A stretch of 56,412 bases of DNA, taken from assembly GCA_015488335.1 (NCBI GenBank), contig WFNZ01000054.1:1-56412 (forward strand), written 5' to 3'. Origin of the DNA: Thermovibrio sp. (GTDB taxonomy: Bacteria; Aquificota; Aquificia; Desulfurobacteriales; Desulfurobacteriaceae). The position numbers and the translations under genes are program-made. Shown in pieces: positions 15,007 through 19,489 of the stretch. Position 1 is the first letter of the stretch, and each line of letters starts with the position of its first letter. The notes below the pieces were generated by a model that saw only the letters and a list, made by a program, of their open reading frames with translations, was not told where the DNA came from and did no database searches.

Positions 15007-15039
15007 AAGTTCTGTAAAACGCATCTTTAACGGGAGGAA

Positions 15040-18000
15040 ATGATGAAAGGGAGGCGATGGAAATTTACTCTTTCAGCCGGAACTTTGTTCCTTTTAGGGC
15101 TGTCGGCTCAGGGTTTTTCTCACCCGCTGGTGCCCCTCAAAGACATCAACGGTAAACCTATCTCTGAAACCCTTGATACTTCAAACAAAATTACCATCGG
15201 CGGAAAGACCTACGTTGCAGGAAACCCTGTAAGCTGGGAAGTTACCTGTGGTGCCTGCCACAAGGAGATTACAGGAGACGTAAGCACAGGGTTACACTCC
15301 CCCGGTCCTATCCACGCTGCCTACCACATAGGCAGGGGCTGGGAGGAGATGTCAGACTCTTTCGGTGCCGACAGAGTGAGGAAAGGGATTGACTGGAGGA
15401 AATTCCTCAGGTCTTTAGGCGACGACGGTGCCTGGTGACCACCTTCATACCGCCAGTTGGCGGCTAAACACCCCGCAGACGACCCAGGCCTTGCCCCAGA
15501 CATAAACAACGGCATTGACTACAGGGGTAAAGTAGCCTACGACATGGACATGGGAACCCCTGATAAGGTCTTTACCTGTGCCTCCTGCCACTCCGGTGGA
15601 ATTATGACTTTTGACAGGGATACAGGTAAGAGGCACGACGAGATTGAGAGCTGGGACGATACAAAAGATGGAACAGGTTTCTACTCAAAGGCTTCATATA
15701 CAGACAGTGAAGTTGATGGTGATCTCTTCTCCTACACTCCAGATGAGGAATCCCGGGGTTACATAGGGATGCCCCACAAGTTCAACTGGAAGAAGTCCGG
15801 CGTTCTTGATACAGACTGTCTCCTCTGTCACTCTGATAGATCTCTGGCCGAGAAAGAGAAATTAGTTGTTAAAACGGCAAACGGCTGGAGTGCTGCAAAC
15901 CCAACTCCAGCAAATCCAAGGGTGTTTGTATTTGTTAAGAAAGACCCAACCGGAAAGGTTGTTGAAATCTCAATGGGATTCCCGCCTCAGCTGACTCAGG
16001 ATGAGGCCCAGAAGGGTTACACAATAGACTCTGCAGCGTTCTACTCAGATCCACTTGAGAGGCTTGTTGCTGTTTACTACGGAGATGTTATTCAGAAGGT
16101 TATCGGAGCGGAGCTCCAGAACTCTAACGTTGACCCCAGCACACTCAACCAGCAGCAGATGATGGCAATCCAGAGCTTCACAATCGGCGTTATTACAGGC
16201 TACCTGAAGCACGGAATGACGACTGGATTCACAATTCCATACTCACAGCTTAAACAGAAGATAGGAGTTGACCTTAAAGACTTCACCTACAACGACTCAG
16301 ACTTCAACAACAGGCTTTCAGGATTCTTCGGTCAGTTCTACTTAGACATCGGAGCTCCTAACTTCTCAGCTCGCGACTACCTGAGAAACGCCTTCTACGA
16401 GTCAACAACAGAGGGTCAGCCCTACGTTGGAGCCGGTTTCTTTGTAAGGGCAGCATCTCCTCAGAACAACTACTCCTACAACCCGATGAAAGATACAGAT
16501 AAAACTGCTCCCTTTGTGAGGCTTGCAAGGGCAGGCCACTTCTACGGCTGGTCTGCAACGGGAACACTAATGGCAATAGCAGACCCCAACGACCCCAGCA
16601 AGCCTTTAGCCTTTGTAAGGCTTGAGAAACAGAAAGATGGAACCTTTAAAGCCGTTGCCTACTATGCAGCAGATGCTGACCTTGATAATGTGAAACTTCC
16701 CATCCTTGAAACAGACGGCCACTACACATTAATCAAACCCGATCCAGATACCCAAACTGACGGTGTTTCTGTTTCTCACCGGGGAGATAGCGACAAAGAC
16801 CTCTCTCTCATGTGTGCACAGTGCCACTTTGCAGTTCCAGATACAGAGAACAGGTGGACAGTTGACGGAAAACACACGTTCCCGAGCTGGTACGTCCGCC
16901 GTGGAATTATCGGCCTTGGAGCAGACGTTGTTAAGAGGGCTGCCGTCTGTGCTCCAGATGAGAGGCAGAACGACCCCAGCGTAGCTCCCATAGCAATTAC
17001 TCCAGACGGTGAAATGGCCAAATACAACAGCATGCAGGATGCCCAAAGTGTTACTCAGGGCCTTCCCGTTGGATACGACGTCCACATGGCCAAAGACGGT
17101 GGAAATCTCTCCTGCCTCTCCTGCCACGGACAGGACAACCTATCTGAAGAGGAAAGAGAACATCACAATCCACACAACTTCCTCAAAGGTAACGACTCAG
17201 CCGGCGAGGTTATGCCTGCACTTGACTACAACCCCTCTGTTAGAACCTGTACGAGCTGCCACTGGGGAACAGACGCTAACGCTGCAAAAGCCCACGAGGC
17301 ATGGTTCGGACCGGCAGCGGGAGCCCACATCTCTGCTATAGAGTGTCAGGTCTGCCACATTCCGTATAAGACCTACTGGACATTCAGGTTCTTTGACGAC
17401 AGCCTTGGATACGTCAACCAGTTTGACGACAGGCTGATGAAGTTTGATAAGTCAACTGGAACCGTTTACCAGTTCCCGCCTGAGTGGGCAATTCCAGCCT
17501 TCGGCCCAACTCCAACCTACGGCCTCAACTTCTCCTACGTTATTGCTCAAACGAGCGACGACGGAAAGGATACCGTTCTGCCGATTACAAGCATAGATAT
17601 GGATCCGTACAGAGCCCTCATGAGGGTCGGAAACAGCCAGTTTGGACTGTGGGAGATTAAGCCAGGTCTCTTCCCGTGGCGCTGGGCACCGGCAATTATT
17701 AAACGCTGGACTATAGACGACAAAGGAAATCCTGTTCTAAAGGCTGGACTTATCAGTCCGATTCAGGTCTTCACCTGGGTTGACGCTTCAACCGGCAGAG
17801 CTCTCTTCACAAGAGAGATGAACATGGCAATAGACGGCGTGGCCTACGACTCAAACGGTAAGCCTTTAGGCCGTTCAACGATTGACCCTGAAGATCCCGA
17901 TAAGAGCGTTCCAGGCTTAACGATTGACCCGAAAACTGGAAAGATCGCCTTTAAAATCCACTACATTGACGGCAACCCTGGTGGACTGCCAGACTACATA

Positions 18001-19461
18001 GACGATGACGATGGAGACATGGTTCCCGAGATAAGCACAGATGCTGAATACGAAGCCCTGAAAACTGCTCTAAAACAGGTTCTTGACCATGAAGACCCGG
18101 GCCATCCACACAACCCTGTTATTATGACCTTTATGGCACCCTTTGGAGTTGACCACGGAGTTCTTCCAGCAGAGTACGCATTGGGTTCCCAGAGGTCAGG
18201 TCCACTCTCCTGTAACGCCTGCCACAACCCCGATGAGAGCAAAAACAGGCTCAGCCCTGCAGTCTGGAAAGGAGACGAGACTGCAGGTAGGGAAGTTACG
18301 CTTACTGTTAGAGCTCTCCCTGAGCTTGCCATTAAGGAGTCTCAGGATAACCACGCCTGGTTCTTGCCTAAGGGAACGAAGGTTGAGGACGGTAAGTTTG
18401 TCATTACCCAGGGAGCTCTCTGCCGCGTAGAATCCGTTAAAGTTGAAAGCAAGGATTATGCCGGATTCTTCCTGGTAACTCCAGACGGAACAGTTACAGG
18501 TCCCAACTGGGATGAGATCTCCGTTTCCGTTCAACCTGGAACTGTTGACACGCCAACGGCCATAAAAGTTGAGAAAGTGGAAGAGCCCTCTGTTGAAGAG
18601 TCTGCCCTCTCAGCTGCCAAATCTTCAGGAATTGGAACTCCCGTTTTGGCAACGGAAATCTACGATATTCACACAAAAACAGACAGCTTTAACGAGCCTG
18701 TGACCTTTACAGTTAAATACGATCCATCTAAAGTAACCGGTAAGATTGTTGTTCTTGCAAGTGAAGACGGTAAGAGCTGGAGCGTTGTAACAACCGGAAC
18801 TGTTGACCCCAACAACCCATACGTGACCTTTGCAAGGACAAAACTGAGCTACTTTGCTATAGCTGGAGAGGCTCCATCTGCCAACAACTTTAACGTTGTT
18901 CTTCCAGAGAGTGAGCAGGTTAACGCACAGGGTAACAGCGGAACAGTAAAAGTTAACCTTAGTGGAAAAGAAATTACCATTACTGTTAATACCAGGAGTG
19001 CCAACATTGAAGGACCGGCACCGGAAGATGCGGTTAAGGAAGTTGCTCAGAAGAATAAGATAGCTAAGGTCATTGCCCACATCTCTGTAGTTCCCGAATC
19101 TGATACATTTACGGTAACCTTCACAGGACTCTCTGCCGACGTTGTTAAGTCTGCAACTGTTGCAACAGATAGGGGAACAGTTACAAATGTTTCCCGTGAT
19201 ATAACAAACGGAAAGATAACTGCAACGGTTTCCCTTACAACGAGGGCTACCACAAATGAACCTGTTACAGTTGTTGTAGGTGAACCTCTAACATCTGTTG
19301 CTCCAGTTGAAACCACTACCACTACAGAAAACGGTGGTGGCGGTGGAGGCGGATGTTCTATTGCTCCTGAAACTGCTCCAGCTTCCGGGTTCGCAAGCTT
19401 CCTGACGATGCTTTCAGGTATTGCAGGTCTCTTTATCGGAAGGAGAAGGAAGAAGAACTAA
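15040..19461 (+). CDS. Octaheme c-type cytochrome, probable selenoprotein (in-frame TGA at 15436)
   Basis: Exported protein of 1473 residues if TGA at 15436-15438 is read as selenocysteine (residue 133). Both sides of the TGA are in one frame. Upstream are a start with GGAGG, a signal peptide (to about Ser27) and the first heme motif, CGACH at 70-74. Downstream are seven more: CASCH, CLLCH, CAQCH, CLSCH, CTSCH, CQVCH and CNACH. The C-terminal third is heme-free and beta-rich, like surface modules. It ends in a Gly7-Cys segment (Cys1439), a hydrophobic helix and a basic tail, resembling CTERM sorting signals. The downstream part lacks a credible start (TTG 15457 has no Shine-Dalgarno sequence), arguing against two genes. 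Its own promoter and terminator flank it. It probably acts in periplasmic or surface electron transfer, and the substrate is unknown. Alternatives are a nonsense-mutated pseudogene or a sequence error. Confidence 0.8.
15436..15463 (+). promoter_or_regulatory. bSECIS-like stem-loop directly after in-frame TGA
   Basis: TGA at 15436-15438 is followed by a perfect 5-bp GC stem, CCGCC (15450-15454) and GGCGG (15459-15463), closing the loop AGTT. The loop begins 17 bases after the TGA and has G in its second position. From memory, the bacterial SECIS consensus needs an upper stem of at least 4 bp, a small apical loop with a G among its first two bases, and about 16-37 bases from UGA to loop. All three are met. 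Confidence 0.65.
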
Positions 19462-19464
19462 TTT

Positions 19465-19489
19465 AAAGGGGGCTCCGTGCCCCCTTTTT
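19465..19489. terminator. Strong bidirectional terminator
   Basis: AAAGGGGGC, loop TCCGT, GCCCCCTTT followed by TTTTT, a 9-bp stem right after the cytochrome stop. Read on the minus strand it also ends the small membrane protein transcript, with a T-rich tail (TTTAAATT). Confidence 0.9.

Follow-up and report, generated by a model that had tools for sequence, protein, structure and literature searches.

A multiheme cytochrome gene of the thermophilic vent bacterium Thermovibrio sp. (assembly GCA_015488335.1, contig WFNZ01000054.1) carries a single in-frame TGA, which raises the question of whether this codon ends translation, marks a damaged or misread gene, or directs the insertion of selenocysteine (Sec) and, if so, what a selenolate might do among eight hemes. 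The gene lies in a stretch of 56,412 nucleotides that was analysed as a whole (the window). A sequence-only reading of this DNA had described a multiheme cytochrome split by the TGA at 15436, and had proposed that UGA is read as Sec at residue 133. We followed this proposal into the home genome of the window (1.65 Mb, 99% complete) and into homologues, for which 24 genomes from the order and 136 from the phylum were searched. The combined evidence indicates that the gene very probably encodes a true selenoprotein, in which Sec resides in an octaheme cytochrome family resembling OTR (TIGR04315, tetrathionate reductase family octaheme; structure 1SP3, from Shewanella oneidensis).

An octaheme cytochrome gene interrupted by one TGA

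The read-through frame extends on the + strand from ATG at 15040 to TAA at 19459-19461 and comprises 1473 codons, of which the TGA at 15436-15438 is the sole interruption, so that the split described earlier was borne out and the TGA falls at residue 133. The predicted product begins with a signal-peptide-like N-terminus and contains eight CxxCH motifs, one upstream of the TGA (C70) and seven downstream (C180, C260, C592, C692, C737, C769 and C1058), as had also been noted. Features of the locus are as follows:

15032..15038, + strand: Shine-Dalgarno-like GGGAGGA, directly 5' of the start codon (sequence reading only)
15040..19461, + strand: group A octaheme c-type cytochrome gene, 1473 aa (orthologue alignments, same TGA)
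15247..15261, + strand: heme 1 CxxCH, C70-H74, upstream of the predicted Sec (motif and alignment)
15436..15438, + strand: TGA, predicted Sec codon, residue 133 (TGA in every gene of groups A to C; in group D a Ser codon)
15448..15462, + strand: invariant 15-nt SECIS core TACCGCCAGTTGGCG, codons Y137-A141 (codon alignment)
15450..15463, + strand: SECIS hairpin CCGCC-AGUU-GGCGG, loop at +17..+20 from the TGA (folding, -9.4 kcal/mol)
15577..15591, + strand: heme 2 CxxCH, C180-H184, first after the predicted Sec; counterpart of OTR heme 2 (alignment register)
16933..16935, + strand: Lys632, invariant in groups A-D and OTR-like proteins, aligned with 1SP3 position 153 (Lys)
19339..19458, + strand: C-terminal tail, GGGGGGCS-hydrophobic-RRRKK, JDVT/MYXO-CTERM-like, below cut-off (NF033191 profile)
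19465..19487, + strand: terminator-like hairpin and T-run 3' of the stop (sequence)

The gene looks monocistronic, lying between prfA (RF-1) upstream and a convergent cysS downstream. No ext gene occurs among the ten neighbours checked, which include prfA, cysS, lpxB, an rlmL-like gene and carA; no Rfam match in the window exceeded the gathering threshold, and plasmid records returned no homologue. The C-terminal tail scored 21.2 bits against the NF033191 cut-off of 27, and a tail of this JDVT/MYXO-CTERM-like kind (GGGGGGCS-hydrophobic-RRKK) is common to the C-termini of all four paralogue groups described below. A surface location is plausible, given the resemblance, at a score below cut-off, of this Gly-rich, Cys-containing tail to surface-sorting signals.

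Paralogue groups and the distribution of TGA

Homologues fall into four groups, designated A (which includes the gene under study) through D. Groups A and B were confined to the Desulfurobacteriaceae among the order and phylum genomes searched, occurring in 17 of the 22 genomes of that family, and a scan of genome contigs returned 13 loci, all assigned to Thermovibrio, Desulfurobacterium or Desulfurobacteriaceae. TGA occupies one and the same alignment column in 13 loci of group A, 14 of group B and nine of group C. Group A orthologues align over the entire length of the protein or up to residue ~1281, and none has a frameshift or a sense codon at the TGA position, either of which had been named beforehand as evidence against Sec.

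Motifs surrounding the codon distinguish the groups. That of the gene under study is GAWUPPSYRQLAAK, and group B, which shares only about 35% identity with group A, has HYGGWUPPSYRQLAAK. A group B copy at C1:20440-25047 (L047, L108) gives the home genome its second Sec octaheme cytochrome, in which both the TGA and the 15-nt core recur unchanged. Group C proteins are shorter (about 800-920 aa; loci L097-L104 and L110), with the motif GMYGKLUPPAYRQLAP, or UAP in L101; no group C gene was found in the home genome, and the group is present in other species of the family. Group D, with the motif GGMYNRVSVPHMFHLAP, is represented in the home genome by a copy on C60 (L094) and elsewhere by L095, L096, L105, L107 and L142. 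In all five group D loci read, Ser stands at the Sec column and a His follows three residues on; the SECIS hairpin is absent from the group and the complete heme set is retained. One search reported two in-frame TAG codons in the group D copy L095 (G004:C19), which may reflect either a pseudogene or a fault of assembly. Of the two residues, Cys and Sec, that the earlier reading had suggested looking for at position 133, the Sec codon is present throughout groups A, B and C, and Cys was found in no homologue of the set searched, the sole paralogue group lacking Sec having Ser instead.

In a maximum-likelihood tree each group formed a supported clade, with C and D as sisters (95/86). This topology is consistent with an ancestor that carried Sec and a single replacement of it by Ser in D; since the tree is midpoint-rooted and its OTR branch very long, the direction of the change is one that we infer.

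A SECIS hairpin conserved at the nucleotide level

The sequence-only reading had recognized a 5-bp GC stem enclosing an AGTT loop that starts 17 bases past the TGA, and had matched it to bacterial SECIS rules. Both observations hold. The stem pairs 15450-15454 with 15459-15463 around the loop at 15455-15458, and in this gene the loop AGUU, the 16-nt spacing and the core hairpin of -9.4 kcal/mol agree with the bSECIS rules set out in PMC13188914. In groups A and B the stem is 5 bp; in group C it is 4 bp, because the next base is different.

Conservation of this element extends beyond the protein sequence. Every one of the 36 genes read in groups A, B and C has the same TGA and, starting 9 nt past it, the same 15 nt, TACCGCCAGTTGGCG, which places the hairpin far beyond chance. 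A codon alignment of 33 genes contains 68 columns of invariant residues, and only the TGA and the five columns Y137-R138-Q139-L140-A141 are restricted to a single codon (TAC CGC CAG TTG GCG for the latter); neighbouring codons vary. Three of these five are rare in the genes concerned (CGC 7.6%, TTG 6.5%, GCG 7.1%), and the probability that one gene would pick all five under its codon usage is 0.0002. For the single gene under study, just 0.08% of 5000 synonymous recodings matched the observed hairpin stability.

In favour of a specific element, the 10-nt hairpin core is confined in the home genome to the two Sec cytochromes and one unrelated match on C56 that has no TGA at that spacing. One observation qualifies the folding: when 54-nt segments were folded, the hairpin was not the energy minimum in this gene (-9.8 versus -9.4 kcal/mol) or in L032, L099, L101 and L102.

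Selenocysteine machinery in the home genome

All components of Sec insertion that the earlier reading had suggested seeking are encoded in the home genome: SelA (525 bits), SelB (444 bits), SelD (377 bits; itself containing Sec, in SGUG) and a tRNA-Sec with anticodon TCA (81.7 bits). The selD locus (L018, G000:C31) has a hairpin of its own, GCCC-GGUC-GGGC, with a loop that begins 18 nt past the TGA. Matches to Fdh-alpha in this genome have no internal stop, and formate dehydrogenase therefore does not explain its Sec system. SelA matches were obtained in all 22 genomes of the Desulfurobacteriaceae and in neither of two genomes from the order's other family; tRNA-Sec was already known from the Desulfurobacteriaceae (PMC4227106). 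General reassignment of UGA is ruled out, because 11 of the 40 ORFs in the window terminate at TGA. Together with the conserved TGA and the conserved SECIS, the sel genes and tRNA-Sec sustain the proposal that UGA-133 specifies Sec, a decoding that we regard as almost certain from the sequences compared.

A probable, divergent relative of OTR

The top NCBIfam match of P0002 and of the six group B, C and D proteins shown is TIGR04315, a family matched by all 23 group A and B members; the scores, 26-64 bits (38.7 bits in one case), miss the family threshold of 375, a cut-off that was passed in none of the 136 Aquificota genomes. Closer to the family are octaheme proteins of another genus of the Desulfurobacteriaceae (g3; L152-L154), which score about 190 bits, also below the cut-off, and have no TGA; one of them (L153) has an in-frame TAA. 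Groups A-D were not found in that genus.

A joint alignment brings all eight CxxCH motifs of groups A-D into register with those of two OTR-like proteins from genus g3. Shared by all are H28, K632, H682, H752, H763, H1039 and the His that follows heme 1, including six distal His columns; H712 falls in a gap. The conserved candidate ligands form an OTR-like set of seven His and one Lys. When one OTR-like protein was aligned with 1SP3, the Lys of its GGGDGVK met position 153 and the Cys of its NDYC met position 64. In OTR, heme 2 reportedly has Lys153 of 1SP3 as its distal ligand, as described by Mowat et al. 2004. The title of that paper, as cited in PMC7096707, speaks of novel heme ligation.

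Profile comparisons were less uniform. With hhalign, groups C and D matched the OTR-like pair at 99% probability, and A or B against the two OTR-like sequences gave no usable alignment; CxxCH motifs held in common inflate comparisons of this kind. Searches of PDB profiles found no real relative with the A1 profile and only weak NrfA matches with the A2 profile (E 0.035 and worse). AlphaFold models of residues 27-1114 (pLDDT 43) and 27-345 (pLDDT 39) were too poor for fold comparison.

We therefore describe the A-D proteins as OTR-like in architecture and not as members of the OTR family, because register and candidate ligands are shared but scores lie far below the cut-off and hhalign of A and B returned nothing usable. 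Descent from an OTR-like ancestor, with great divergence, is likely. In common with OTR are the eight CxxCH in identical order, a Lys aligned with position 153, the distal His columns, and a non-heme residue between hemes 1 and 2, which is Cys in OTR and Sec in groups A-C. The A-D proteins differ in their size, which ranges over about 800-1540 aa where 1SP3 has 443, in their long inserts and surface-type C-terminus and, in groups A-C, in the motif in which Sec is set, WUPPSYRQL or LUPPAYRQL. Pairing Sec133 with the OTR Cys residue by residue was considered and dropped, as the two do not meet in the alignment.

Possible roles of the selenocysteine

From these features a working scheme can be proposed. 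SelB, Sec-tRNA and the SECIS hairpin just 3' of the codon would decode UGA-133 as Sec, and the resulting octaheme c-type cytochrome would be exported, probably to the cell surface. Sec may be placed near heme 2, because it lies between hemes 1 and 2, in the segment that holds a conserved non-heme Cys in OTR. There, at an active-site heme 2, the selenolate might attack or bind a sulfur or selenium compound while the remaining seven hemes supply electrons; it could alternatively shield heme 2 as a displaceable ligand. A selenolate adduct with tetrathionate, polysulfide or selenium oxyanions could form in the manner of TsdA, a thiosulfate dehydrogenase/tetrathionate reductase in which a heme-ligating Cys forms a covalent thiosulfate adduct at the catalytic heme c (PMC5146829). 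For sulfur chemistry carried out by a Cys side chain at a catalytic heme, TsdA provides a precedent of function; it is a diheme protein and uses Cys, not Sec. A Cys-Sec redox pair in group A is unlikely, since outside CxxCH the group conserves just one further Cys, in the C-terminal tail. An earlier candidate, that one heme is left without a conserved distal ligand and Sec fills in, was weakened by the invariant Lys632 aligned with OTR Lys153.

The probable function is that of a reductase at the cell surface, its Sec lying at or close to the active-site heme. That Sec sits at a catalytic heme is a possibility we rate at somewhat less than even. Tentative, and a little less secure again, is the wider proposal that the three Sec paralogues represent a hitherto undescribed class of extracellular heme reductases, using an active-site-heme selenolate to reduce sulfur, selenium or metal compounds, and that in group D Ser took the place of Sec and a possibly heme-capping His was acquired. 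A comparably tentative reading holds that Sec is real but non-catalytic, and that a protein acting purely as an electron conduit would use it to ligate a heme, to support the structure or to bind metal or selenium. An extracellular conduit would suit eight hemes and a surface-type C-terminus in a protein with no known substrate, and group D keeps its heme set intact with Ser in place of Sec and a new His; the Lys aligned with OTR Lys153, however, suggests an OTR-type active heme, and Sec has been retained in groups A, B and C with neither Cys nor any other replacement.

Other readings bear on the codon itself. Sec insertion in general competes with termination, which would count toward a programmed stop/read-through switch yielding a short and a long product, and a candidate TTG start exists 3' of the TGA; UGA might also be read through as another amino acid, such as Trp. 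We consider such outcomes very improbable in view of the complete sel machinery, a hairpin at the right spacing under strong synonymous constraint, and the use of UGA as an ordinary stop elsewhere in the window. A downstream-only product, moreover, would have neither signal peptide nor heme 1 and so would presumably fail to mature as a cytochrome.

The sequence-only reading knew of no such protein with certainty; Sec-containing multiheme cytochromes do have precedents. ExtKL, a Geobacter cytochrome whose gene has an in-frame TGA, was put forward as a selenoprotein in 2007, no SECIS being detected (PMC1914089), and was the subject of later work (PMC5877670); a 2026 review lists ExtKL along with one OTR-family octaheme annotated in GenBank as a selenoprotein, WP_331457571.1 (PMC13188914). 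The latter resembles the present protein in being an octaheme cytochrome with one reported Sec (PMC13188914), and differs, by description, in being filed under TIGR04315, the cut-off of which excludes all Aquificota proteins searched. ExtKL (NF040886; GSU2937-GSU2936) is likewise a multiheme c-type cytochrome with an in-frame TGA, Sec machinery and no known Cys homologues (PMC1914089), and, both being Sec multiheme cytochromes (PMC5877670), the present protein might be assigned to that family and to its Geobacter role in selenite/tellurite reduction. This is slightly less probable still than a switch or another amino acid. At E up to 10 the 23 group A and B members drew no match to NF040886, the ten neighbouring genes checked do not form an extHIJKLMNOPQS-type cluster, none of them being an ext gene, and the five N-terminal hemes and undetected SECIS of ExtKL (PMC1914089) stand against eight hemes, Sec between hemes 1 and 2, and a clear SECIS. 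A nonsense-mutated pseudogene or sequencing error, suggested by nothing more than the in-frame stop, can be dismissed, given that assemblies made independently for 17 species share the identical TGA, as do three paralogue groups, and that the sequence is conserved on either side of it.

Implications

Sec multiheme cytochromes are thus an already known kind, of which the octaheme lineage of the Desulfurobacteriaceae appears to be a newly described variant, prior mention being possible: no description of Sec cytochromes in this family was found in the literature searched, which took in few subscription papers and no preprints. As a well-supported selenoprotein lineage of three paralogue groups, it joins the few Sec multiheme cytochromes known, with a clear SECIS where the 2007 search found none for ExtKL. 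For annotation the consequence is practical, as a gene model ending at the UGA would yield a 132-residue fragment and a remainder devoid of signal peptide. A selenolate in proteins that align by their hemes with a known octaheme enzyme makes the role of Sec beside a heme open to test, and group D, a candidate natural loss of Sec for Ser, offers against groups A-C a natural Sec-to-Ser contrast within one family.
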